Source of the DNA: a virus
Virus record (IMG/VR): IMGVR_UViG_3300022187_000236
Location: 1 to 23,931 of that record
Length of the DNA: 23,931 nucleotides
Strand: one strand, 5' to 3'
The position numbers and the translations under genes are program-made. This document shows positions 1,282 through 23,931 of the stretch, one piece after another (within the stretch, counting starts at the first letter, position 1; each line of letters starts with the position of its first letter). The notes beneath the pieces are model-generated. The model was not told the DNA's origin. It made no database searches and worked only from the letters and a program-made list of their open reading frames with translations.

Positions 1282-1743
1282 TTACCTCCAGTTAAGGTTT
1301 AAATAAACGTTTGAGCCGACAGCTACATCAGCTGGACCGGGCAAAGCTTGAATAAATTCGGCACCAGAACGTTCATAACGGTACCTTGCTTGCATTGGAT
1401 CTTTGTAGTTAGGTACGTAAAGGATCTGTGCAAGTCGGTTGGTTTCGTAGAGATAAATCTCATCCCAAACCTTTAATGCCTCTTTGGCATTACTGGAGCG
1501 AATCGTACGATCAACGTCTCCGGCAATACTTTCAAGGCGAGTAGAAGGTGACGTGGCAACTTCTGTTTTTGCTTCAGCGGTATTGCAACGCCCAATTTGA
1601 GTAATAATTTTATTGTAGAAGTAAGAATCAGGAACTGTGTTCATAGCTTCTTCAAGCCTGGCGTAATCACCAGCCGGAACTGACACCACGTAATAACCGA
1701 GGTGATACCTTACTCTACTTTTGTCAAAGTCGGAAAGCTGCAC
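1282..1743 (-). CDS. Hypothetical phage protein, 153 aa, candidate head-tail connector
   Basis: This is a compact, apparently globular protein with mixed helix and strand and none of the low complexity of its neighbours. It begins with a helix-turn segment (SDFDKSRVRYHLGYYVVSVP) and ends with YERSGAEFIQALPGPADVAV and a strand. The start is GTG 1743; an in-frame TAA lies immediately upstream, so no longer form exists. Its size, fold-like composition and place downstream of the capsid gene suit a neck or head-completion protein. No diagnostic motif supports this and the assignment is positional. No strong Shine-Dalgarno is visible, but a TATAAT box lies 23-28 nt upstream. Confidence 0.7.
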   Translation of the reverse strand: MQLSDFDKSRVRYHLGYYVVSVPAGDYARLEEAMNTVPDSYFYNKIITQIGRCNTAEAKTEVATSPSTRLESIAGDVDRTIRSSNAKEALKVWDEIYLYETNRLAQILYVPNYKDPMQARYRYERSGAEFIQALPGPADVAVGSNVYLNLNWR

Positions 1744-3829: not shown

Positions 3830-4993
3830 TCAGATAGTGCCGTCATCAGCAAGGAAGCTGTAAGCGGTGGTAACAAAGTCCTTGTTCAGGATCTCGAAAC
3901 CAGCGTACAGTTGCCAGATCAGGATGATAAAGCGGCTGAAATCATCGTTGTTGTTGATGAGTACCTGAGCGTTAGGACCACCGATACCCACACCAACGGA
4001 CTGAGGACCGAAGAAGAAACCTTGGGCAACCTCTTGAGAAGAGTAGTTGCTACTGTCAGTAAAGTCAGCGGTAACGTTCTTGGTCGGGAAGTTGGTTGAT
4101 TCGAAGAACTTAACACCTTCGAACTGAACACCAGTCGGCATCACAGGCTCACCAGCCAGGAAGTAACCCTGACCAGCCTGGGGACCCATGAAGAAGCTGG
4201 CGTTGTTAGGCATCATGGGGTTACCCATGTACATGCCTTGACCAGGTGCACCAGCGTAACGTGCGATCTCACGGAAGTCGCTATCACGACGCAGATGCAT
4301 CATGAAGGTGGGATCACAGATGCAGCGATACAGACCATCAGCGAAGGTGGGGACGTTGCGCTTACGCATGTCCTTCACAACTTCCAGAAGGTCAGTGCGA
4401 ACAGAGAACTGCTGCACTTGGTTAGCGTACTCAGTAGCGGTATAATCGATACGACCAGAGGAATCTTTGGTCTTACCACCAGCGAAGTAGTAACCACCTT
4501 GAGAAGAAGAAGCAGCACCGTTGGCTTCGGCTTTGGCGAGTTCGTCAATAAACACGCGATCACGCCAGCGGCGGTAGTCATCGAGCAGCGTTAGGCTACC
4601 GATGGACTGGTGGAACATGTTCAAGTTGCCGGTATCAAGCAGCATACGCTGAGCAGTAATCAGAGTCTCGCGGGCAATCTTGAAGGTAGAAGGTTGGGTC
4701 GGGTCACCCGGATCAGCGGGACCGGTGTATTCCTTCAGCACAACAAGTACCTTCTCTTTGGTGATGTTGCGGCTGTTGGCAGTACCGATCGTTTGATCAG
4801 CAATACGCTCACGGCTGTCCTTGGTACCAGGGGTTCCCCAGAACTTGTAGCGATCGAGCTGAACAGTTTGACCAGGCTGAGAAGTGAAGTCGTGAACCAC
4901 CACGGGCTCAACGGCCATTTCGCAAATATATGCGGGGTGAGGGCGATAAAGCTCCGCACCTAAAATCTTTGGAAAGTCAGTATCAAGAAACAC
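3830..4993 (-). CDS. Major capsid protein (HK97-fold type)
   Basis: The 387-aa protein has the character of HK97-fold capsid proteins, and I recall close relatives in uncultured marine and cyanophage genomes. It starts MFLDTDFPKILGAELYRPHP, has an N-arm with the QPGQTVQLDRYKFWG strand, a spine helix with the WRDRVFIDEL motif, and a P-domain/A-domain C-terminal half rich in Gly, Phe and Asn. It would form the icosahedral head shell. The start is GTG 4993, preceded by GGAGG with a 10-nt spacer, and a 105-nt AT-rich gap upstream may hold a promoter. Codon choice (many C-ending codons) and GC content look higher than in neighbouring hypothetical genes, consistent with high expression. Confidence 0.88.
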   Translation of the reverse strand: MFLDTDFPKILGAELYRPHPAYICEMAVEPVVVHDFTSQPGQTVQLDRYKFWGTPGTKDSRERIADQTIGTANSRNITKEKVLVVLKEYTGPADPGDPTQPSTFKIARETLITAQRMLLDTGNLNMFHQSIGSLTLLDDYRRWRDRVFIDELAKAEANGAASSSQGGYYFAGGKTKDSSGRIDYTATEYANQVQQFSVRTDLLEVVKDMRKRNVPTFADGLYRCICDPTFMMHLRRDSDFREIARYAGAPGQGMYMGNPMMPNNASFFMGPQAGQGYFLAGEPVMPTGVQFEGVKFFESTNFPTKNVTADFTDSSNYSSQEVAQGFFFGPQSVGVGIGGPNAQVLINNNDDFSRFIILIWQLYAGFEILNKDFVTTAYSFLADDGTI

Positions 4994-5639: not shown

Positions 5640-6611
5640 TCACTCCATCACAAACAGTTTGTTCGCCATTACATCAGGTGTAGCCTGGTTGATAACGCGC
5701 CAGGCGTTCTGAGGATCACGCTCCATGGTTGACTTGAAGCTTTCCCAGAAGTTCTGAGGTTGCTGTGGTGCAGCTGCAGCAGGAGGAGCGGGGAATTGTC
5801 CCAGGCCAGGATTCACAGCTTGGGTTGGATAGCCAACAGTTTCAAGCTGAGCTTCGTTTTCATAAACAGGATACGGACCTTCAGGACCAAAGAACTTGAG
5901 AGTGTAATCACTCAGAACATCAGGGTTGGTAAGGATCTCGTTATAAGCCAGATTTTCCTGATGCTCATTAACAGCGAAGTTGGCATAACCTTGCAAGGTG
6001 TCAGTAGCTTGGCTGCCCCAAGCAAGGGCGCTATCAAGAACGCTTTCCAGGTTTAGAGCGTACTGATTTAGAATTGCCGGAGCTTCGGTCCCGTACGCGT
6101 CCACCACCATCCGACTTTCCGGACTCCACCCCAGTACTTCCGCTACGTCCGCTAAGGAGCTGACTGAGTAAGTTTGGGAAGAGTTGCTGGAGGATGTCTG
6201 GTTTGTTGACCAGGTCTGCGGAACCGATTGTGGCGTAGCTTGGACGCTCGGTTGTCCGTAATTCGCCGGGGTATACTGAGTCGGATTGACCTGTTGCGAT
6301 TGTTGACCCTGGAACGGGGATGGCACCGGGCTCCCCAGCAGATTGACCACTTTGTTGAATGCCGTCTCCCAGGGGTTGCTCTGGGGCGCCACCGGTTGGG
6401 ATTGGGGGGCGTACTGAGTAGGGTTTGATTGGTAACTGGTAGTTCCCTGTGGTGCTACTTGAGGCACCGCTTGAGGGTAACTGGTTCCCACTTGATACTG
6501 AACCGGAGCTTGGGCCACCTGCTGTTGAGGAGCTGGTGCGACGTAGCTGCTCGGAGCGACCGCCGGTGCTTGGCTCATCTGTGGGGTCGATTGGACGGTA
6601 GCGTCCTGCAT
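5640..6611 (-). CDS. Probable capsid scaffolding protein, 323 aa
   Basis: Residues 1-150 are Pro/Gln/Ser-rich with two copies of NPTQY[AT]P. From about residue 150 the protein becomes acidic and helical (SLADVAEVLGW, LNLESVLDSALAWG, NEHQENLAYNEIL) and it ends with a basic-acidic helix (NFWESFKSTMERD). A disordered arm plus helical domain, encoded between portal and major capsid, is the usual place and look of a scaffold. The start at ATG 6611 is well supported by AAAAGGAG 7 nt upstream. Its first 192 codons overlap the last 192 codons of the portal in the +1 frame. The scaffold role is inferred from order and composition. Confidence 0.65.
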   Translation of the reverse strand: MQDATVQSTPQMSQAPAVAPSSYVAPAPQQQVAQAPVQYQVGTSYPQAVPQVAPQGTTSYQSNPTQYAPQSQPVAPQSNPWETAFNKVVNLLGSPVPSPFQGQQSQQVNPTQYTPANYGQPSVQATPQSVPQTWSTNQTSSSNSSQTYSVSSLADVAEVLGWSPESRMVVDAYGTEAPAILNQYALNLESVLDSALAWGSQATDTLQGYANFAVNEHQENLAYNEILTNPDVLSDYTLKFFGPEGPYPVYENEAQLETVGYPTQAVNPGLGQFPAPPAAAAPQQPQNFWESFKSTMERDPQNAWRVINQATPDVMANKLFVME

Positions 6612-8361
6612 AACTCATCTCCTTTTGTAATGCTTCTAAAGTGCGATACAGATATGGAGTTAAATCCAATTTGGGATCCGCTGCCATCGGTAAATCCGGT
6701 GCCTGCGGGTGGGGAGTCTGCATCATGCCCCCCACTAAACGAGCAAAGTGAGAGTATGCACCCTGCAACTCGTTTACCATTCTGAACGGGAACCCAGATA
6801 GCATCTCGGCCCGCTCCTCATCTGTTTTTGATGGGAAGAGGTACTTCAGTGCTTCTATACTATCAACACCTAATTCTTGTAAATTTCTTACAACAATAGA
6901 GTTGTTCAGAATGTCCTGCGTAGAATCTTCATACACAGGTCCCAGCCAGCGCCATTGTACCGTAATATCGCCATCTGGGATTAATCCCTTGACGCCGGGA
7001 GGTATCATTTGTGCCTCCACACAAGCCATCATTACTTTTTTAAGTTGCGTTTTATACATTTTTTCAGCTTCTTCATAAGCAGCTTGTTCTTCTGGTCCAA
7101 GCTCTCCCTCTGGTGGAATTGGTTTTTCAATTTGCGCAGCAACAGCAAGTGTGTCTCTGAACAGCTGCTCTTCTTGATAGATAATTAACTCAAAACAACG
7201 CGAAAGACCATGTTCATAGATTGCATTTGCTTTTTTCTTAGATGTTGCCGAAACTCGTCCAAATAATGATTTATATTCCGTAGCAGTAACACCAGCACTG
7301 ATAGATAACTCGTCAACACCACCTAATGCAGTGCGAATTTCTTCTCGGTACTGCCGTACAAACGCATTCTGGTCACCACTAATGGCATCTGGGACGATAT
7401 ACCCAACTCGATCGTTCGGTTCCAGGTTTGCAATGACTCTTGGCACCCGAATCTGCCCATCAACACCGCGAGATACTGGATCTTGCTTAAATGTTGACCG
7501 GCTAAGCCCCATGGGACTGGTAAATCCAGAGTTTGCAGCAATAGATGGGCGCTGTACACCGGTATCGCCACCGATATCAATAAGATCAGTCTTGGGACGG
7601 GAAGAAAGAAGGGTAGGATTACCAAAAAATTGCAGATTCTTCCGCATGTTGCGGACTAATTCGTCATGAATAACAATGTGATTGGCAACTGAGTCAAAAT
7701 CACCGCTGCCTTCCATTGAAAATCCCTTGGGATTATTAAAAATTTCCACACAAGGGATAAATTTTAACGTGTTTTTAAATGTTTTAGTCTTGCCAGGGAT
7801 CGTGTAGTTGACATTATCAAAAGACATTTCTCCTTCCGAGTGCGTTTCCTCAATTACATCTTTTTTGATGGACAATCGGATGTATCGCTTTGCCCCCTGG
7901 GACTCAGTATTGCCGTATCCAGTCAAATCTGCGGAATTAATTTCCTGATTAAACCCATTGCCACGTTTGACTTTATAGCTATAGATGATTACGACTTCCT
8001 CTAATTCTCCATCGGTATTGTAATAGGAGCGATATTCATGAGAACGAAAGTAATAAAGACGGTAGTTCGCATCCGTTGGACGGATGTAAAACATTCCTTT
8101 ACCGTCACAAAGAAAGTAATCCCAGATGGAATCAAGTCGAGTATCTAATTTGTTATATTTAGCAACTTTATCAATAAAATCTTTACGTTGGTTACCAAAG
8201 TTGTCTTGAGCGGGAAAAAATTCAACACCCTGACGGATGCCAAACAATTTCATCTGAGCGATATGAGACGCAACAATGCCTGTGTCAACGCCAGCGCTAC
8301 CATCACGCTCGATGTAAGCGTCAATAATTTCTTTAAGACGGGCTTTGACGTTGCTGGACAT
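6034..8361 (-). CDS. Portal protein with long disordered C-terminal tail
   Basis: The 775-aa protein forms the dodecameric DNA gateway at one capsid vertex and docks TerL. Evidence is the position between the terminase block and scaffold/capsid, plus a core resembling podovirus-type portals: Tyr/Arg-rich N-terminal strands (90-130), a central acidic/aromatic region, and the segment ISAGVTATEYKSLFGRVSAT (354-373) followed by long helices (374-455). The recognisable fold ends near residue 585. Residues 584-775 are Ser/Gly/Pro/Thr-rich with one short helix (ILQQLFPNLLSQLLSG) and a basic end (VRSKPGKRS). That tail coincides exactly with the overlap with the scaffold gene, so it may have arisen by overprinting. 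The start overlaps the previous stop as TAATG at 8361. Confidence 0.85.
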   Translation of the reverse strand: MSSNVKARLKEIIDAYIERDGSAGVDTGIVASHIAQMKLFGIRQGVEFFPAQDNFGNQRKDFIDKVAKYNKLDTRLDSIWDYFLCDGKGMFYIRPTDANYRLYYFRSHEYRSYYNTDGELEEVVIIYSYKVKRGNGFNQEINSADLTGYGNTESQGAKRYIRLSIKKDVIEETHSEGEMSFDNVNYTIPGKTKTFKNTLKFIPCVEIFNNPKGFSMEGSGDFDSVANHIVIHDELVRNMRKNLQFFGNPTLLSSRPKTDLIDIGGDTGVQRPSIAANSGFTSPMGLSRSTFKQDPVSRGVDGQIRVPRVIANLEPNDRVGYIVPDAISGDQNAFVRQYREEIRTALGGVDELSISAGVTATEYKSLFGRVSATSKKKANAIYEHGLSRCFELIIYQEEQLFRDTLAVAAQIEKPIPPEGELGPEEQAAYEEAEKMYKTQLKKVMMACVEAQMIPPGVKGLIPDGDITVQWRWLGPVYEDSTQDILNNSIVVRNLQELGVDSIEALKYLFPSKTDEERAEMLSGFPFRMVNELQGAYSHFARLVGGMMQTPHPQAPDLPMAADPKLDLTPYLYRTLEALQKEMSYAGRYRPIDPTDEPSTGGRSEQLRRTSSSTAGGPSSGSVSSGNQLPSSGASSSTTGNYQLPIKPYSVRPPIPTGGAPEQPLGDGIQQSGQSAGEPGAIPVPGSTIATGQSDSVYPGELRTTERPSYATIGSADLVNKPDILQQLFPNLLSQLLSGRSGSTGVESGKSDGGGRVRDRSSGNSKSVRSKPGKRS

Positions 8362-9630: not shown

Positions 9631-10004
9631 CGTAACAATTTTTCAATCATCCTATCAAGTTTAGTATTAATTTCCTTAAAATGATCATGCATCTGTTGAA
9701 TTTCTCTAAGAAAGTCAACTTTCAACACGTATTCAATTGGCATACGTTTGACCTGCTCTTCGACTTCGTGGAGTCTCATTTCTGAATCTCGTAAGCGCTC
9801 ATGAGCTTGTTTGACACGTTCGTGAGAGCGGGCCAATACTTTTGAAGCAACCCAGCCGCCGCCAGTAACGGAGCTGATTACGCAGGTCAAAACCAAAGCA
9901 ATGTACTCTGGTCCCACGGCAAATAAATCTTTTGTTACCTTTATTTTAAATCTTAGTAATCCACCTGAAGCTTGCCGCGTTTCATAAGACCATTTATTAA
10001 CCAA
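9627..10004 (-). CDS. Membrane-anchored coiled-coil protein (holin- or spanin-like candidate)
   Basis: Counting from TTG 10004, residues about 31-56 (EYIALVLTCVISSVTGGGWV) form one hydrophobic segment. Residues 57-125 form a heptad-rich, charged helix (SHERVKQAHERLRDSEMRLH) ending in LDRMIEKLLR. One membrane anchor plus a coiled coil beside the terminase gene recalls holins or spanin-type proteins, but no signature proves it. The start is uncertain. TTG 10004 overlaps terL by 52 nt and has no Shine-Dalgarno. GTG 9917 gives 96 aa beginning just before the membrane segment, with the nearest AAGG about 19 nt away. The stop overlaps the AbrB-like start by 4 nt. Confidence 0.6.
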   Translation of the reverse strand: MVNKWSYETRQASGGLLRFKIKVTKDLFAVGPEYIALVLTCVISSVTGGGWVASKVLARSHERVKQAHERLRDSEMRLHEVEEQVKRMPIEYVLKVDFLREIQQMHDHFKEINTKLDRMIEKLLR

Positions 10005-12490
10005 ACGAGAGCGTCAACGCAGTCGTCATGGGAACTTACGCCAAAATTTGTCATCTCTTCAAATAAAACAGTAAAGTTTCTGTAACGATTAAAAATAACC
10101 TTTCGATCCTCGAAAAGTCCCATCACTCCACGGAACCTGGCAAGTTTATCTGCACGGAATCCTTTGATCGCATGCCATACCAGGTTATATAAATTTTCAT
10201 TATTTAAACAGATTCTCTTGAAATCAGCTTCAAGTGAAGCCTGGTACGCAACAGCTTCTGAGTAGATGTCGCAGGTAGAGAAGGTCGGGAAGTAGTTGTC
10301 ATTCGCATCTTTACCAATAACGGACCAGTCGTATAGCAGTTCTTTTAAGGCATCAAGTTTCTCAAGATTGCCCATTGCTCGCATACGTCTGTAATCAATG
10401 ATGTGGATCTTATCGCCAATCCTTCCGCCAAGAACAAATACTGTGTAATCGTTTTTCTCTTTTGTACCAGCGGATAGATCCACTCCAACGCCAAGGGTAT
10501 CGAATTCAGTTGCGATCTCAGCCTTAACAAGCAGCTCTGGTGCCAGAGATAGCTCATTCTGCCTGACGATTTGATTCATGTACTGGAAAGAGAAAGCAAT
10601 AGGTGCTTGCCGTTTCTTTTCTTTCAAGTATTCCAGGGACCACATCTCAGGCCAGTAAGATTCCTCTTCACCTGTTTTCTCATTGTTTTGGATTGCTGAC
10701 AATACAAGCTGCATCCAATTGTTTTGCGGGCAGAAAGTTGTTGCGTGAATATCGTCATGCCTGAATCTTGTGCCAAGACATATTGCCCTACCACCTTCAA
10801 ACATTGTTGGAGAGATAACTGCATTCCAGTTATCCTGCATTGTTTTACGTATATCGGGGTTGCCAATATCTGCAGAGCTCTTGATCGGGTCGTCAATTAT
10901 ACAGTTACCTACATTTAAGCCGTTTGCAATAAAATTATGACTCATGTGATGTACTTCAAGATCATAAACATACTCCGCTCGATCGCTAAAGAACTCAACT
11001 CGGGAAATGGACTCAGCCTTCCAGCTTTGTCCGTTACTTGATGATGTGCCACATGGCACTGACGACACAATGTTATTAAATTTTGAGGGATATTGTTTGT
11101 CTTTTTGTGGTCGATATGATGAACACAAAGATTGGTTCGTAGGGAACCATTTTTTAACTTCTGTTTTTTCTCCTTTGTACCACAACCTACACAAGTTAAA
11201 TTGTCCCTTTGAAGAATCAAAGGGCGAATTTTTTTGAAATCGTTTGTCGAGCAACCGTGTTGATAATTGCTGTTTCCGCATCCCTTCATCTTTTTCGAAT
11301 GAAGTTTGTTGGCACAATCCCGTGAGCAACACTTGGTTGTGTGACTGATTGGCTTGAACGCCTTCTGACAAAACAAACATTTTTTCATTGAAAGTGTTTG
11401 CCTTGATGCCCCAGCACATTGACGGCTGCAGTGTATCGCGGGAAAGTTTTTGCTTAAATACTGAGATAAACGGCTGGACACTAGGGAGAATTTTTGGTTG
11501 CAAATTGGGCAAACTAGATTTACCAGAAATGACTGAGTGGTTTTGTAACAGTTTTCGCAAATCCGTTGTGTGTGTTTCTTTTGGTTTCCGCACGCAAGGC
11601 AAGACTTGATCTTCCAGCTTTCCGGATAGCTTGACAATGGCATCCCCTTTACTAAGATCTCCCGCCCTTTTTTGCCTTCCTTCTTTCGTAATAAAAGGGT
11701 GCTCGGGAGTTGCTGAAATACAACCTCCACTGTTTGTTGTAATTTCAACAATTCCTTTGGTATAACGCCTTGTAACTGCTCCCACTTTGCACCAATTAAT
11801 TTGATCTGTGATGTGGTTTCTTGTGGCAACACGGTAAGCCTCTGGATTTTTATAAATGGAAGCAATTGGAACTTGCCCTTGATCAGTATACACCAAAGTA
11901 TCGCCAGTAAAGCATAAATGGGATCGCTTAGAGGTAACTGAACCTTTCAGGCCTGCAGCGCAGAGAGTAAACTGTTCTTCACCTGTAGTATCAATTCCTG
12001 CAAACTTGTGATCAATAGACCAGTACTCATTACTTGTTACATTCTTGAGTAAGCGAACAGACGGAAACACGTTTTGATATTTTTTGCTATCAATAATACG
12101 TTTGATAGTTGCAGATTTAGATCTTGCAATATCAACTGTGTAAGACAAGTAAAGAATTTGAAGGGGTTTCTTTGCTGTTGTATGTACACCAATTGCCCAT
12201 GCAGTGAATAAACCCAACACGGTACTTTTGGCCGACCCCCTGGGACCGAGTAGATCAATATTCGGTCCAGCAATTTTTACAAGACAATCAGTATCTTCGT
12301 TTGTTACTAATTGCTTATGCCATTCTCTATGGTGATTTGCTGGTGGCTTATCCGCTACGTATTCACAAAAAAAACCAAAGTCTTCTCTTGCACGCTCCAG
12401 GAGGTCTTCATTCTTGCTTTTGCGGATCTTGTGCTTTTGAATAGCAGCCTTTGCATTTCGCCTGTAAGCAAGATGAAGGTGAGAAGGCAC
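9953..12490 (-). CDS. terL: Terminase large subunit interrupted by an intein
   Basis: The 845-aa precursor is the packaging ATPase/nuclease. Walker A is GPRGSAKST (82-90). Walker B is CIIDD (530-534), directly after the intein; coupling-type GTRFRHDD is at 573-580. The RuvC-like nuclease follows, with DLSAG (671), a central acidic cluster near DIYSE (741-745) and HDDCVDAL (821-828). Removing residues 193-529 leaves about 508 aa, a normal TerL length, and joins SHL to CIIDDP. The start is GTG 12490 with no clear Shine-Dalgarno and no in-frame ATG nearby. The gene lies after TerS and three small ORFs and before portal, scaffold and capsid. The protein must splice to be active because Walker A and Walker B are on different exteins. 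Confidence 0.93.
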   Translation of the reverse strand: MPSHLHLAYRRNAKAAIQKHKIRKSKNEDLLERAREDFGFFCEYVADKPPANHHREWHKQLVTNEDTDCLVKIAGPNIDLLGPRGSAKSTVLGLFTAWAIGVHTTAKKPLQILYLSYTVDIARSKSATIKRIIDSKKYQNVFPSVRLLKNVTSNEYWSIDHKFAGIDTTGEEQFTLCAAGLKGSVTSKRSHLCFTGDTLVYTDQGQVPIASIYKNPEAYRVATRNHITDQINWCKVGAVTRRYTKGIVEITTNSGGCISATPEHPFITKEGRQKRAGDLSKGDAIVKLSGKLEDQVLPCVRKPKETHTTDLRKLLQNHSVISGKSSLPNLQPKILPSVQPFISVFKQKLSRDTLQPSMCWGIKANTFNEKMFVLSEGVQANQSHNQVLLTGLCQQTSFEKDEGMRKQQLSTRLLDKRFQKNSPFDSSKGQFNLCRLWYKGEKTEVKKWFPTNQSLCSSYRPQKDKQYPSKFNNIVSSVPCGTSSSNGQSWKAESISRVEFFSDRAEYVYDLEVHHMSHNFIANGLNVGNCIIDDPIKSSADIGNPDIRKTMQDNWNAVISPTMFEGGRAICLGTRFRHDDIHATTFCPQNNWMQLVLSAIQNNEKTGEEESYWPEMWSLEYLKEKKRQAPIAFSFQYMNQIVRQNELSLAPELLVKAEIATEFDTLGVGVDLSAGTKEKNDYTVFVLGGRIGDKIHIIDYRRMRAMGNLEKLDALKELLYDWSVIGKDANDNYFPTFSTCDIYSEAVAYQASLEADFKRICLNNENLYNLVWHAIKGFRADKLARFRGVMGLFEDRKVIFNRYRNFTVLFEEMTNFGVSSHDDCVDALVWLINGLMKRGKLQVDY
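10904..11914 (-). mobile_element. Intein within TerL, 337 aa
   Basis: The intein is TerL residues 193-529. Block A is CFTGDTLVYT (Cys1 at 193), block B is SATPEHPFIT (about 259-268, Thr and His present), block F is YVYDLEVHHMSHNF (507-520) and block G is FIANGLNVGN (520-529), followed by Cys+1 at 530. Cys1, block B Thr/His, terminal Asn and Cys+1 are all present, so splicing is plausible. The penultimate residue is Gly instead of the usual His. Insertion is immediately before Walker B, a highly conserved homing site. The in-frame segment between blocks B and F has no homing-endonuclease signature and is Ser/Gln/Lys/Asn-rich. The endonuclease is encoded across the same bases in another frame. 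Confidence 0.9.
10942..11643 (-). CDS. HNH homing endonuclease nested in the intein in the +1 frame
   Basis: From ATG 11643 this frame encodes 233 aa. Zinc-finger-like Cys pairs recur: CLACGN/CENC (15-32), CPICNQ/CSRQC (45-76), CLFCQK/CCSRDC (89-110). An HNH domain follows: CVGC (151-154), LCVHHIDHKKTNNIPQNLI (172-190) and CRQCHVAHH (193-201), supplying the His-His, Asn and His catalytic residues plus the zinc site. HNH enzymes cut DNA and drive homing. The gene lies within TerL codons 283-517, exactly where an intein endonuclease domain belongs, but offset by one base. A GGAG lies 15 nt upstream of the ATG and an AGGGG abuts it. The frame is also open upstream to TTG 11865, but that part merely re-reads intein blocks A/B. 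Expression is unproven. Confidence 0.85.
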   Translation of the reverse strand: MPLSSYPESWKIKSCLACGNQKKHTQRICENCYKTTQSFLVNLVCPICNQKFSLVSSRLSQYLSKNFPAIHCSRQCAGASRQTLSMKKCLFCQKAFKPISHTTKCCSRDCANKLHSKKMKGCGNSNYQHGCSTNDFKKIRPLILQRDNLTCVGCGTKEKKQKLKNGSLRTNLCVHHIDHKKTNNIPQNLITLCRQCHVAHHQVTDKAGRLSPFPELSSLAIERSMFMILKYIT

Positions 12491-19429: not shown

Positions 19430-22029
19430 TAGATGCCTCCACGTAATTCACGTAAATATTTTTGCACTTGTTGTTGTGCATCAGGACGACCACTTCTTTG
19501 AAGGGCTGCAAGTTCTTGACTTACATTCATAGAACTAATCTTAGTTTGTTTTTCTTCTGGTGTTAAAGAAACAGAAGAAACAATACGTTGTGAGCGTCCG
19601 GGTCCTGTTACTGTAGAAGGATCATATCCTTCACGGCGTCGTCTAGCAAGAATAAGAGCAGCATTAGCAGCATCAGCCTCTGAACCCTGCAAAGAAATCA
19701 TTCCTAAAGTTTCATCATCCAGTTGCGTATAAGGATTAACAGCTGCTGCCATTGAACCTTCTTGAGGGCCTGATTTCTGAATACCTGTACGTGTAATAAC
19801 CCTTCCGGTTTGAGTGCGATCATCTGTAAAAGGCTTGCCTTCTAAAGCTTTACCTGTAAGACCAGTACCAGGCCGGTAACCAAATTGGTCTTTTTCATAC
19901 TCGCGAGCAGATTGATTTCTAGGTGTTCGTAATTCTTGAAGAATATTTCCCAAATCAACACCTCCTTCATCTCTGGTGCCCGCACTAAATTCTGCAACAT
20001 TACGTCCCCCACCACCCTTGGGAGTCATGTCAACCATTTTACGTTCAGAGCGAAGCTCTTGTGTACCAGGGATAGGTTGGCCTGATTCATCAACCTCAAA
20101 ATAAAGGCGCTGTCCTTCTTCAGTTCCTGGTTTAAGTTGAGAAGGAGGAATTAAATCTGCAATATAGTTTTTAGTAAATTTTTCTGCACCTCTGACACGA
20201 GCACCACTTTGGCCACCGTAAACAATTTGGTTTAAGTTTTCACTCAGAACATCAAGACGATCTAATTCATAATTAATATCATCAAGGCGTTGATTAGCAC
20301 GAGTACTTTGCTCTGGTGTTAACCTGCCAGAATTAATAGATGAAAGCACTTCATCTTTGTAGTCCAATATATTGTTATATGTACGATTTACATTAATTAA
20401 CTCAGCATTAGCTTGTGCATTTTTACTTGCTTCTTCCAAACGTACGCTACCTAGCCAATCACGTTTTTTAGCTGCTTGTTCTTGAAGGCGTTCAGCAGTT
20501 GCTTCCATATAAGTTGGTTGCCTTAAGCCAAGCTCAACATTTTCTGTAATAGAAGTACCTGTATAGGGGGTTGTTGTAGTTTTAACTCCAGCAACACGCC
20601 CTGTAGGCACTTTTTCTCCTGCAATAACTACAAAAGGTTTGGCCATATTTTCAAACAACTCAGGATCATAGGTTGCTCCCAGTTGAAGGTTTTGCTTGCG
20701 TCTTGTATATTTGGATCCATATAAATAAGCATCTGAGCCTAGGCGATTAGCAAGCTCTTTTTCAACACGCGTAGGACTAATTGGCAGCCCTTGTTCAGCA
20801 AGCTCTGAAGCAATTTCATCCCTTTCTCTGGCTAAAAAACGAGCTGCAGATGATTCACTTAAAGGTCTATTGATTCTTGAAGTTGTAATTCCTTCTGCTT
20901 GGTCAACAGGGACACCATCTACTGTTTGTGCAGCTGCTTGAGTGATAGGTGCATCAGATGAAACAGGTGCCATTTGTTGGTTAACATCTTCCAGCGCATC
21001 AACTTCCATTAAGTTAAGATCTTCGTTGCGTTGTAGTTGTTGACGCATCCGACCGGTCATCTGATCTTCACCAGAGCCAGCAGCATTGATTTGTTGATCA
21101 GATATCGTAGGCGCTTGTTGTTTCTGAATATTGCTCAATGTATTTTGTGCCATTGCCTGAGCGGCTTCATTGGCTTGAGATGCTGTATCTGGAGTTTGTT
21201 TTAATAAATTAGTGGGTATTCGTTCCAGGTTGTAATTAATTTCCGATAATACCTCTGGGTCATTTGCAAATGTTTTTTGCGCCCAAGTATTAAAGTTGTT
21301 AACTGTTTCAGTCGTCAAAGGTAAACTGGGGTCTTGAACCTTGGCAGCAAGATTGATGACAGACGAAGGAAGTGTTTCGTAGATGTCTTCATCTATTACA
21401 GATTCCATGACATCGCTCATATAACTACGAGCTTCATCAAACTCTTTTTGTTGGTTTCGAGCAATACGTTGCCTTCTAGCGGCCATACCCTCTTCATCTG
21501 CTTCTGCGCGAAGTTGATCAATTACTTTGTTTCCTTCTTTTGCATATAGTGCATCAAGTTTATTGCGCACTCTATCTTCACGCCTTATTTCTCTATCAAC
21601 AATTCCTTGCCTATATTCACGTATTAATTCGTCTGCGCGATCTGTTTGAATTACTGGTTCAGAAACAGTTTCTTGATAAACATCTTGACGAGTTGGTTCT
21701 TTACTCTTGCCAACATTTGCTACTCTACTAACACTGTCTTTGTTTAAATCTTCGATTTTTACACCAGACTGGCCTGTTGTCTTCGTAGACTTAGGAATTT
21801 TATTACGTCCTCTTAAAGCCAGCGCTCCAGCCCCTGCACCCGCTAACGCAAGTCCGATACCCACACCCATAGACACTGGGTCAATACCCTGTTCCTGAGG
21901 CTGCTTAAGTTGATTGCGGCGGAATTGAAGTACCTGTGGCGCAAGCTGAGCACGTTCTTCTGGTGAATCAGGTACCTGCACACCTGTTGCTTGACTATAT
22001 GCGTAGAAGTCTGCTGGTGAAACAGGCAT
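19429..22029 (-). CDS. Large internal virion protein, 866 aa, first gene of the minus-strand module
   Basis: The N-terminus is soluble, then residues 52-73 form a Gly/Ala-rich hydrophobic helix (MGVGIGLALAGAGAGALALR) followed by a basic RGRNKIPKS patch. Most of the rest is Gln/Glu/Arg/Ala-rich helical sequence (VDREIRREDRVRNKLDALYA near 140-160). A Gly/Tyr/Thr-rich part with an RKQNLQLGATYDPELF segment lies near the middle, and the last 150 residues look flexible. No transglycosylase or peptidase motif is evident. Length, helix content and a single membrane module resemble phage internal core/ejection proteins, by inference. ATG 22029 has no clear Shine-Dalgarno. Its membrane motif recurs in the 320-aa protein. 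Confidence 0.7.
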   Translation of the reverse strand: MPVSPADFYAYSQATGVQVPDSPEERAQLAPQVLQFRRNQLKQPQEQGIDPVSMGVGIGLALAGAGAGALALRGRNKIPKSTKTTGQSGVKIEDLNKDSVSRVANVGKSKEPTRQDVYQETVSEPVIQTDRADELIREYRQGIVDREIRREDRVRNKLDALYAKEGNKVIDQLRAEADEEGMAARRQRIARNQQKEFDEARSYMSDVMESVIDEDIYETLPSSVINLAAKVQDPSLPLTTETVNNFNTWAQKTFANDPEVLSEINYNLERIPTNLLKQTPDTASQANEAAQAMAQNTLSNIQKQQAPTISDQQINAAGSGEDQMTGRMRQQLQRNEDLNLMEVDALEDVNQQMAPVSSDAPITQAAAQTVDGVPVDQAEGITTSRINRPLSESSAARFLARERDEIASELAEQGLPISPTRVEKELANRLGSDAYLYGSKYTRRKQNLQLGATYDPELFENMAKPFVVIAGEKVPTGRVAGVKTTTTPYTGTSITENVELGLRQPTYMEATAERLQEQAAKKRDWLGSVRLEEASKNAQANAELINVNRTYNNILDYKDEVLSSINSGRLTPEQSTRANQRLDDINYELDRLDVLSENLNQIVYGGQSGARVRGAEKFTKNYIADLIPPSQLKPGTEEGQRLYFEVDESGQPIPGTQELRSERKMVDMTPKGGGGRNVAEFSAGTRDEGGVDLGNILQELRTPRNQSAREYEKDQFGYRPGTGLTGKALEGKPFTDDRTQTGRVITRTGIQKSGPQEGSMAAAVNPYTQLDDETLGMISLQGSEADAANAALILARRRREGYDPSTVTGPGRSQRIVSSVSLTPEEKQTKISSMNVSQELAALQRSGRPDAQQQVQKYLRELRGGI

Positions 22030-22769: not shown

Positions 22770-22966
22770 ATACCACAGGTTATCTCCACGCCGTATTAAT
22801 AACCGGGAAGAGTGGTAATACCAGTAACCTCATTCTAACATAGCTCAGCTTTTTTGTCAAATCTAGGACAATCCCGCGCCTGGATGACAGGAATGATTGT
22901 TAGAGATTGAGGTTAATCGGGGGCTGCGCATCCGTACAACGCAGATTGTTCCTTCGTTTCAATCCA

Positions 22967-23155
22967 ATGCAACCCAAGACATTTGCTTTTGTTACTGACT
23001 CGTTCTACTACGAGTTTGTGATTTGCAATGAAGTTGCCCGCGTTACTAAGCGGGCGTTTAAAGCGCACAGTTTTAATTTTTACGATCAATCTACAACCAT
23101 GTCGATTGATAAAGCTAGAGATTATTACAAGCAGCTCCAGGCTGTAACCAACTGA
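22967..23155 (+). CDS. Small hypothetical protein, 62 aa, first of the plus-strand small-gene array
   Basis: From ATG 22967 the protein reads MQPKTFAFVTDSFYYEFVIC, then NEVARVTKRAFKAHSFNFYD, and ends LQAVTN. It looks like a compact alpha/beta fold rich in aromatic residues. I have a faint memory of similar small proteins in marine cyanophages but can name no family. A longer TTG-started form (22907) would run through unlikely coding sequence and is not preferred. No Shine-Dalgarno precedes the ATG. The stop codon TGA (23153-23155) lies at the base of the first tRNA-like junction element. Confidence 0.65.
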   Translation: MQPKTFAFVTDSFYYEFVICNEVARVTKRAFKAHSFNFYDQSTTMSIDKARDYYKQLQAVTN

Positions 23156-23238
23156 CGGTAACCAGCCCGTACCAGGGGTTCGATTCCCCTGGCAGTTATT
23201 GCCCAACCGACCGGAGATGGGCACCGGCACAACAGGAG
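23150..23238 (+). ncRNA. Intercistronic tRNA-like element, copy 1
   Basis: A closing stem AACTG (23150-23154)/CAGTT (23193-23197) encloses ACGG/CCGT (23155-23170, 8-nt loop) and a 7-bp arm CCAGGGG/CCCCTGG (23172-23192) whose TTCGATT loop is a standard tRNA T-loop. Almost every base is used, giving a tight three-way junction like a tRNA without a D arm. ATTGCC follows, then a TGCCC...GGGCA hairpin (23200-23223) and AGGAG for the next gene. The upstream stop codon TGA straddles the junction base. The fold was worked out by hand; copies 2 and 3 support it. Confidence 0.65.
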
Positions 23239-23244
23239 ATTCCT

Positions 23245-23430
23245 GTGACCAAGCGCGTTTACTTCGCAAGCATCACTGTCTTCCTTGCGGTGATGGCAGG
23301 TGCTGTTCAGCTAGGTGTCAACCAGCTGGATAAGGCTACTGCACAACAGTGCAGAACACATGATTGGCCTGCTGACAAGCATGCCATTCACATGGATTTC
23401 TGTACAACGTACGGTTATCCAACCAACTGA
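23245..23430 (+). CDS. Small membrane or exported protein, 61 aa
   Basis: The GTG start at 23245 has AGGAG 6 nt upstream. Residues 4-24 (RVYFASITVFLAVMAGAVQL) form a hydrophobic helix after a basic Lys-Arg, so it is either a signal anchor or a secretion signal. A likely outside domain with QQCRTHDWPADKHAIHMDFC and a final TYGYPTN follows; its two Cys could pair. I recall similar small Cys/His/Trp proteins in marine cyanophages and picocyanobacteria, function unknown. Its stop TGA sits inside the second tRNA-like element. The ending ...TN-stop, with identical ACCAACTGA, is shared with the previous gene. Confidence 0.72.
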   Translation: MTKRVYFASITVFLAVMAGAVQLGVNQLDKATAQQCRTHDWPADKHAIHMDFCTTYGYPTN

Positions 23431-23510
23431 TCCGTTAAAGCGGCCAAGGAGGTGCAAACCCTGGTCCAGTTATTGCCCCCTGTGGAGATGGGCACCACAC
23501 ACAACAGGAG
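23425..23510 (+). ncRNA. Intercistronic tRNA-like element, copy 2
   Basis: The layout matches copy 1. A closing stem AACTG (23425-23429)/CAGTT (23467-23471) encloses a short CCG/CGG hairpin (23432-23443) and an arm CCA-A-GG/CC-TGG (23444-23464) with TGCAAAC in the loop. Then come the invariant ATTGCC, a TGCCC...GGGCA hairpin (23474-23494) with the shared GGAGATGGGCACC, and ACAACAGGAG as the ribosome site. Arm sequences differ from copy 1 while pairing is kept, although this copy is the weakest (bulged A, 3-bp middle stem). The TGA stop of the membrane protein is at 23428-23430. Confidence 0.6.
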
Positions 23511-23514
23511 CGCC

Positions 23515-23763
23515 ATGAGCGTCTTCAACACCGCCAGCGACAACGGCCTTCAGCAAGAAGGTTTACTCCTTCCCACCAGGGAGGAACTGGGTGCACGCGC
23601 CTTCGACACCATCCGTTTCTGGATGGAAGAAGGATACTCCCAAACTCTTGGGAGAGAACAAGCGTTACAGGTTGCAGCCTGGGCGCTGAAAATAGCTGGA
23701 GAATCTGATCTTCAGCACCAGGTTCTTGCGGAGCTTGTAGAGCTTCCTGAGAACTACGGCTGA
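23515..23763 (+). CDS. Small helical protein, 82 aa
   Basis: ATG 23515 has AGGAG 4 nt upstream, in a leader shared with the previous gene. The protein reads MSVFNTASDNGLQQEGLLLP, then a helix (REELGARAFDTIRFWMEEGY) and a second helix (LGREQALQVAAWALKIAGES), and ends LPENYG. It looks like a small acidic helical bundle. No family is recognised. A longer in-frame form from 23452 would translate the tRNA-like element and is rejected. GC content is higher than in the virion module, suggesting different codon use for this array. Confidence 0.7.
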   Translation: MSVFNTASDNGLQQEGLLLPTREELGARAFDTIRFWMEEGYSQTLGREQALQVAAWALKIAGESDLQHQVLAELVELPENYG

Positions 23764-23836
23764 GCTGTAGTACTCCACACAATGGAGGGCTAGGTGCAAC
23801 TCCTAGCCTCAGTTATTGCCACCCACTGAGGGTGGC
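23758..23836 (+). ncRNA. Intercistronic tRNA-like element, copy 3
   Basis: GGCTGAG (23758-23764, containing the TGA stop) pairs with CTCAGTT (23808-23814). Inside are CTCCA/TGGAG (23773-23787, 5-nt loop) and GGCTAGG/CCTAGCC (23788-23808) with loop TGCAACT, which keeps the T-loop T1/A5 positions. CAGTTATTGCC is again present (23810-23820). The following hairpin is stronger than in copies 1-2: GCCACCC-ACTGA-GGGTGGC (23818-23836), then TTTGATT, resembling a weak terminator. The stems differ in sequence from copies 1 and 2 but keep their positions. Confidence 0.65.
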
Positions 23837-23848
23837 TTTGATTACATC

Positions 23849-23931
23849 ATGAACAGCTTCATGGAAAACTTTCCAACAGAAGCATTTCTATCTGTACTGA
23901 TAGGTACATGTCTTGGCTTCAGTATTGGTGC
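23849..23931 (+). CDS. Partial small membrane protein (C-terminus outside window)
   Basis: From ATG 23849 the open frame gives 27 codons to the window edge: MNSFMENFPTEAFLSVLIGT, then CLGFSIG. Residues about 11-27 are hydrophobic, so a membrane helix or signal is likely. ATG 23861 is an alternative start. Unlike its neighbours it has no AGGAG; the strong hairpin of element 3 lies 12 nt upstream. The function is unknown. Confidence 0.5.
   Translation, partial: MNSFMENFPTEAFLSVLIGTCLGFSIG

Follow-up and report, generated by a model that had tools for sequence, protein, structure and literature searches.

Near the right end of this viral DNA a run of small genes is separated by junctions of similar build, and the question raised by the locus is what these junctions are and what they do for the phage. 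The window, by which we mean the whole stretch of 23,931 nucleotides that was analyzed (IMG/VR record IMGVR_UViG_3300022187_000236), comes from a relative of the freshwater cyanophage S-EIV1, with 74% DNA identity over 5640-8340. As far as 22029, the genes to the left of the junctions are on the minus strand; they resemble those of Synechococcus phage S-EIV1. The large terminase gene (9953-12490, minus strand) has an intein inside it (Pfam Intein_splicing, E 4e-14), and within the terminase stretch an HNH/zinc-ribbon endonuclease frame of 307 codons runs on the same strand in a different reading frame (10942-11865, minus strand). The plus-strand series of small genes starts at about 22967, and the contig terminates within it. 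A hairpin, CTGCGCATC..ACGCAG, stands ahead of the first array gene at 22922-22946, and also in S-EIV1 (L040, ~4070-4095, minus strand). Three small genes are complete, none of them with a PHROG or Pfam match, and each (61-82 codons) ends with its TGA inside the closing stem of its junction; the first ATG after the third junction is at 23850.

Three Junctions of Two Modules Each

The order of parts is a closing stem (P1), a hairpin (P2), a T-loop arm (P3), the bases [A/C]UU and, as a second module, either a pseudoknot or a hairpin with an ACUGA loop. The genes and the three copies in the window are as follows.

22967-23155, plus strand: ORF 1, 62 aa, stop TGA 23153-23155 within P1 of copy 1
23150-23200, plus strand: copy 1, tRNA-like 5′ module (covariance model E 5e-8; recovered in the MFE fold)
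23150-23154 and 23193-23197, plus strand: copy 1 P1, AACTG/CAGTT
23155-23158 and 23167-23170, plus strand: copy 1 P2, ACGG/CCGT
23172-23192, plus strand: copy 1 P3, CCAGGGG (23172-23178), T-loop TTCGATT (23179-23185), CCCCTGG (23186-23192)
23198-23200, plus strand: copy 1 linker after P1, ATT
23201-23227, plus strand: copy 1, 3′ module, H-type pseudoknot, both helices of which co-vary in the family
23201-23204 and 23219-23222, plus strand: copy 1 pseudoknot helix, GCCC/GGGC
23211-23214 and 23224-23227, plus strand: copy 1 pseudoknot helix, CCGG/CCGG
23232-23247, plus strand: Shine-Dalgarno hairpin, ACAGGA/TCCTGT, with the GTG of ORF 2 (23245) in its 3′ arm
23245-23430, plus strand: ORF 2, 61 aa, GTG start 23245, stop TGA 23428-23430 within P1 of copy 2
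23425-23474, plus strand: copy 2, tRNA-like 5′ module (covariance model E 4.5e-11)
23425-23429 and 23467-23471, plus strand: copy 2 P1, AACTG/CAGTT
23446-23466, plus strand: copy 2 P3, broken, AAGGAGG (23446-23452), T-loop TGCAAAC (23453-23459), CCTGGTC (23460-23466)
23475-23498, plus strand: copy 2, 3′ module, pseudoknot; GUGG/CCAC and GCGG/CCGC pair types co-vary in the family
23475-23478 and 23490-23493, plus strand: copy 2 pseudoknot helix, GCCC/GGGC
23482-23485 and 23495-23498, plus strand: copy 2 pseudoknot helix, GTGG/CCAC
23515-23763, plus strand: ORF 3, 82 aa, stop TGA 23761-23763 within P1 of copy 3
23758-23817, plus strand: copy 3, tRNA-like 5′ module (covariance model E 6e-6)
23758-23763 and 23809-23814, plus strand: copy 3 P1, GGCTGA/TCAGTT
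23773-23777 and 23783-23787, plus strand: copy 3 P2, CTCCA/TGGAG
23788-23808, plus strand: copy 3 P3, GGCTAGG (23788-23794), T-loop TGCAACT (23795-23801), CCTAGCC (23802-23808)
23815-23817, plus strand: copy 3 linker after P1, ATT
23818-23836, plus strand: copy 3, 3′ module, hairpin GCCACCC ACTGA GGGTGGC, with a conserved ACTGA loop and stems that vary in other phages

A preliminary description of this DNA had placed three plus-strand junctions here, and its coordinates, closing stems, T-loop 7-mers (TTCGATT, TGCAAAC and TGCAACT) and the stop codon embedded in each are all borne out. The sequence CAGTTATTGCC, which it gave as common to the three junctions, is exact in the window at 23193, 23467, and 23810 only. 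It took each junction up to CAGTTATTGCC, but the structure continues from there, in copies 1 and 2 into a pseudoknot and in copy 3 into a hairpin with an ACTGA loop. A covariance model trained with copies 1 and 2 and without copy 3 finds exactly three places in the window, and these are copies 1, 2, and 3. The pairing of the arms, described as largely kept, holds for copies 1 and 3 (z of -2.9 and -3.1 against shuffled sequence) but not for copy 2, where about three inner pairs of the T-arm are left and the fold has no advantage over shuffled sequence (z of +1.0). The T-arm of copy 2 resembles a chimera in which two arm types have been joined.

A Co-varying RNA Family

Scans of IMG/VR with exact patterns gave 38 and 114 DNA stretches, and more than 160 distinct copies were found across viral contigs, together with relatives in marine cyanopodoviruses; the further copies in related phages that the preliminary description had called for are therefore present. 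It had also named beforehand a lack of compensatory changes in homologous junctions as refuting a functional RNA, and such changes are found. In 61 pseudoknot-type copies, standard pairs fill 95.0% of pair cells, double-sided changes occur at 14 of the 25 pairs, and the covariation score is 0.391, compared with 0.156 in shuffled sets (0/500) and no more than 0.105 with the partner strand slid. Helix 1 of the pseudoknot shows G-C/A-U and C-G/U-A exchanges, and in helix 2 GCGG/CCGC exchanges with GUGG/CCAC and GCAG/CUGC.

Given that CAGTT was part of the search pattern, P1 is near-invariant in this 61-copy set and was tested separately, using as the sole anchor a downstream hairpin with an ACTGA or AATGA loop and nothing upstream, which gave 61 unique contexts. 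In 59 of these a T-loop motif whose stem has at least 4 bp lies exactly 12-13 nt upstream of the anchor, and sliding to five other positions gives 0/61. P1 has a perfect partner strand in 49 of the 61, compared with a mean of 27 and a maximum of 37 when the 3′ strands were swapped (300 trials), and most of the contexts that lack one pair at four of five positions. The apical ACUGA loop is strongly conserved, and the AUU of the linker is predicted to be single stranded. We consider it virtually certain that the element is a conserved functional RNA family, as had been proposed from the window copies.

The family is undescribed and absent from Rfam. Rfam 15 gave no family at gathering score over the element in the window (E up to 5), in S-CBP2, or in other marine members (E up to 0.5), and full-text literature searches, with subscription papers outside their coverage, found no description of it. 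The nearest likeness is to tmRNA and cyano_tmRNA (RF01851, RF00023), where the T-arm sequence AGGGGTTCGATTCCCCT aligns with the T arm of the model. This match amounts to only 13 bits over 17 nt and scores below the gathering thresholds (13.2 against 70 bits in the window, 14.4 against 47 in S-RIP1), and the element is without a coding domain.

The 5′ Module Resembles the Top Half of a tRNA

P1 and P3 together make 12 bp in 138 of 165 copies and 13 bp in another 25; the split between them varies (5+7, 6+6, 7+5, 6+7, 8+5) with a nearly constant sum, which resembles the acceptor and T stem of tRNA. The loop is [U/A][G/U][C/U][A/G]A N [mostly pyrimidine], that is, the T-loop consensus, and a 12-bp stack capped in this way is as found in a tRNA gene. 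Position 56 of the loop and the base that ends the P2 loop change together (C and G in 107/134 of the GC type; U and A in 6/7, a type that reflects few independent events), resembling the G19-C56 elbow pair of tRNA. The minihelix with a T-loop noted in the preliminary description is hence sharpened by a 12-13-bp ruler, a loop consensus, and co-varying elbow contacts. A full cloverleaf is not formed, as the anticodon arm is missing and ARAGORN calls no tRNA in the window.

We also scanned with this ruler, fixing P1+P3 at 12 or 13 bp, requiring a long frame to have its stop codon at P1, and leaving the downstream bases free. This gave 167 unique matches and none in reversed and complemented controls. 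The bases that follow P1 are A in 135/167, then U in 148/167 and U in 161/167. A C directly after the discriminator occurs in only three matches, which have ACC after the stem and look like genuine tRNA genes with CCA. An unpaired discriminator with no C next to it thus follows the 12-bp stack, as in a substrate of RNase Z.

The Stop Codon Is Embedded and the Next Start Follows at a Narrow Spacing

A frame of at least 35 codons terminates between P1 and P3 in 165 of 185 unique copies, compared with 22% of random windows. UGA accounts for 78% of the embedded stops but for 44% of those that end long frames in the contigs concerned, and P1 compensates for the identity of the stop: AACUG/CAGUU goes with UGA, AGCUAG/CUAGCU (NATL2A-133) and AGGUAG/CUACCU (9515-10a) with UAG, and GCUA/UAGC (L172) with UAA. 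In Syn5, S-CBP3, P-GSP1, and the late copy of P-SSP7 the stop codon lies in the P2 hairpin instead. Start codons mostly come 31-48 nt after the AUU, with about 80 nt from stop to start. Many pseudoknot-type copies have a Shine-Dalgarno hairpin comparable with that behind copy 1, often with both the Shine-Dalgarno sequence and the GTG start inside it.

Occurrence in Cyanophages and Shuffling of Flanking Genes

The preliminary description looked to marine phages for the element; marine relatives do carry it (P-SSP7, NATL2A-133, 9515-10a, Syn5, S-CBP2/3/42, P-GSP1, and S-RIP1), but the phage of the window is of the freshwater S-EIV1 type. Whole records of ~50-95 kb have 1-6 copies, which cluster within a few kb and with few exceptions share one strand. 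S-EIV1 has two copies for ~130 annotated genes, so that most of its gene junctions are without the element. In marine and estuarine Autographiviridae divergent copies lie in early genes and ahead of the capsid gene, and those shortly upstream of the capsid gene in P-SSP7, P-GSP1, S-CBP3, and S-CBP42 have no start codon directly after them. In P-SSP7 the discriminator base of the element lies at about nt 1046 and about nt 20679. In NATL2A-133 and S-CBP2 the gene that opens the array has the leader hairpin as well, with no tRNA-like part before it. Searches at E≤0.5 found no element in S-CBP1, S-CBP4, P-SSM2 (T4-like), P-SCSP1n, P-RSP2, or S-TIP28, and plasmids yielded no copies. In bacterial chromosomes of 84,980 species the freshwater pattern gave four matches, in unrelated taxa and without the conserved surroundings of the family.

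Clustering of the neighbors into gene families, with short upstream tails and stricter starts, gave 131 distinct upstream/downstream family pairs in the 161 copies that have both neighbors, with 30 families found on both sides. The copy in L105, like copy 2 of the window, joins halves of two arm types, and this diversity of pairs and the chimeric arms together show that cassette shuffling is real. The type of 3′ module is weakly linked to one side (55% the same per upstream family and 63% per downstream family, 50% expected).

A Candidate Cut Site between Genes

We tentatively favor the reading that a mimic of the tRNA top half punctuates polycistronic phage mRNA through an RNase Z-type cut after the discriminator; the cut we infer, and we rate the whole as a serious possibility that stops just short of probable. 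P1 and P3 would stack into an acceptor/T-arm-like helix of 12-13 bp, with the T-loop contacting the P2 loop; from this stack a single unpaired base, discriminator-like, and then UU would emerge. The upstream gene would have its stop codon built into the 5′ half of this tRNA-like part, and the 3′ part, pseudoknot or ACUGA-loop hairpin, would be the 5′ leader of the next gene. Once the last ribosome had gone from the stop codon the 5′ part would fold in the infected cell, and host RNase Z, the tRNA 3′-processing nuclease, would cut after the discriminator, between CAGUUA and UUGCC. Polycistronic RNA would in this way become single-gene messages that begin with a pseudoknot or hairpin and close with a compact, presumably protective tRNA-like 3′ end, in which the stop codon of the message itself is contained.

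RNase Z cuts directly after the discriminator regardless of base identity and is repressed by a C directly after it (PMC7479834). A cut of this type would explain the ruler, the T-loop, the absent C, and the keeping of the stop codon on the upstream product, the conserved [A/C]UU behind the stem agrees with it, and the leader hairpin at the first array gene of NATL2A-133 and S-CBP2 is expected if primary and processed mRNAs both begin with it. RNase P, which the preliminary description also had in mind, is unlikely to cut the junction, since its cut 5′ of P1 would take away the stop codon. Against a cut by RNase Z stand the lack of an anticodon arm and of an ARAGORN call, an Rfam match limited to 13 bits of T-arm, the two copies only in S-EIV1, and the absence from six phages at E≤0.5; the narrow spacing of starts fits a translational element as well. 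A wider claim, which we put forward as possible and with real reserve, is a dedicated cyanophage mRNA punctuation, in which a stop-containing tRNA-top-half mimic is cut by host tRNA 3′-processing and perhaps CCA-tailed, making the genes self-contained, freely shuffled cassettes.

Translational coupling, in which the terminating ribosome opens P1 and the junction and pseudoknot deliver this ribosome or a new 30S subunit to the start that follows, has a counterpart in the repY-repZ pair of IncB/IncI plasmids, in which a pseudoknot turns on translation once the leader has been terminated. A stop codon inside P1 or P2, tightly spaced starts, and starts within small hairpins would all suit it, but we think it unlikely given the ~80 nt from stop to start, the capsid-gene members without an adjacent start, and the first gene of two arrays, which has a 3′ module and no upstream junction; nor does coupling need a T-loop, a 12-13-bp ruler, or UU. 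Ribosome recycling at the stops, as suggested in the preliminary description, or re-initiation has some plausibility and is weakened by those same members ahead of capsid genes. Somewhat less likely again is a stabilizer of mRNA 3′ ends, the tRNA-like fold stopping 3′-5′ exonucleases and RNase E or another nuclease cutting the AUU linker. Its anatomy would be identical to that of an RNase Z substrate and the linker is predicted single stranded, but the near-constant stack and the kept contact between T-loop and P2 loop would go unexplained. A MarR-type factor of a cyanophage is reported to increase the expression of host RNase E in infection (PMC9692554), and we count this in favor of the stabilizer.

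We regard as improbable a recombination joint of gene cassettes, attC-like or homologous between repeats, that shuffles small accessory genes. Integron attC sites work as single-stranded DNA in folded form and have a GTT core, the cores being RYYYAAC...GTTRRRY, and integron cassettes resemble the array in that small genes end in a structure of which the pairing, not the sequence, is kept, and gene order is shuffled. The many gene-family pairs and the chimeric arms of copy 2 and L105 speak for such a joint, but there is no invariant DNA core: P1 varies (UGAUU/GAUCA, AGGUAG/CUACCU, GCACG/CGUGC), so the attC GTT site is not kept, and the right end of the main type reads GTTATTG. The G-U pairs and the T-loop, found on one strand only and always the coding strand, point to RNA, and the shuffling may simply have followed from the presence of repeats. 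The cassette recombination raised in the preliminary description hence stands as regards strongly shuffled gene order, whereas a DNA-sequence-specific site is disfavored because all arm sequences vary with pairing kept. A regulatory aptamer, by which early genes are under the control of a ligand, for instance a phage or host protein that binds the T-loop, the elbow, or ACUGA, would fit the strongly conserved ACUGA loop and T-loop and the clustering of copies in one operon of S-EIV1-like genomes, but is very improbable with flanking genes from many unrelated families and copies also ahead of late capsid genes.

Relation to Known Junctions and tRNA Mimics

The t-elements of plant mitochondria are named as cleavage sites (PMC8003010). 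They and mitochondrial tRNA punctuation share with the phage element a tRNA-like fold between genes of a polycistronic RNA, co-transcription in the phages being suggested by gene order only, and a cut by tRNA-processing enzymes is proposed for t-elements and, putatively, here. The phage element differs in its occurrence in dsDNA phages of cyanobacteria, its 12-13-bp stack and T-loop with no anticodon arm, the stop codon that it holds, and the fixed second module that follows. In T7-like phages the RNase III sites (R0.3 to R18.5) are likewise structured junctions between genes, which split polycistronic RNA into stable messages; they are hairpins cut by RNase III, with no T-loop, tRNA-like stack, or embedded stop codon. 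The 3′ ends of TYMV and BMV and the CrPV-type IGR IRES, which lies between two ORFs, are also viral mimics of tRNA parts with a pseudoknot nearby. These belong to RNA viruses of eukaryotes, and in TYMV the acceptor is made from the pseudoknot and ends in CCA, whereas the phage element keeps its pseudoknot apart and encodes no CCA. We know of no other case in which mimicry of the tRNA elbow, a stop codon inside the element, and a pseudoknot leader occur together. Synechococcus and Prochlorococcus phages, the model phage P-SSP7 among them, gain a strongly co-varying RNA family not described before, and if it is a true cut site, bacterial viruses would use a tRNA punctuation resembling that of mitochondria.

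Structures Neighboring the Element

In L011 (~4000-4090, plus strand) a copy is seemingly altered by an additional hairpin 3′ of the T-arm (CCAGCAGC/GCTGCTG). S-EIV1 (KJ410740; L040, ~745-820 and 1420-1480, minus strand) has two intergenic repeats, CCCTGGGC...GTATAAGTCCCAGG and CCCTGGGC...GTGTAAGTCCCAGG, which on sequence grounds look like another structured junction of the operon that carries the element. A Glutamine-II riboswitch is present in P-SSP7 (20522-20575; L149, 1386-1439) and in S-RIP1 (L154, 1297-1349), and the late copy of the element in both phages lies 3′ of this riboswitch and of a short YRG-peptide gene, the stop of which is in the tRNA-like element. The arrangement recalls host Yfr6, a short ORF behind a Glutamine-II-riboswitch-like 5′ UTR (PMC2864571). 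In S-CBP2 we had suspected by eye an RNase P RNA at 880-1090, for which Rfam gave no match even on a 311-base stretch. The same region (KC310806, 857-1279; L126) has the leader hairpin GCATCTCACTGAGAGATGC, preceded by a GC-rich stretch, and an ATG near 1115 within the annotated frame of gene 2, the annotated start of which is probably wrong.
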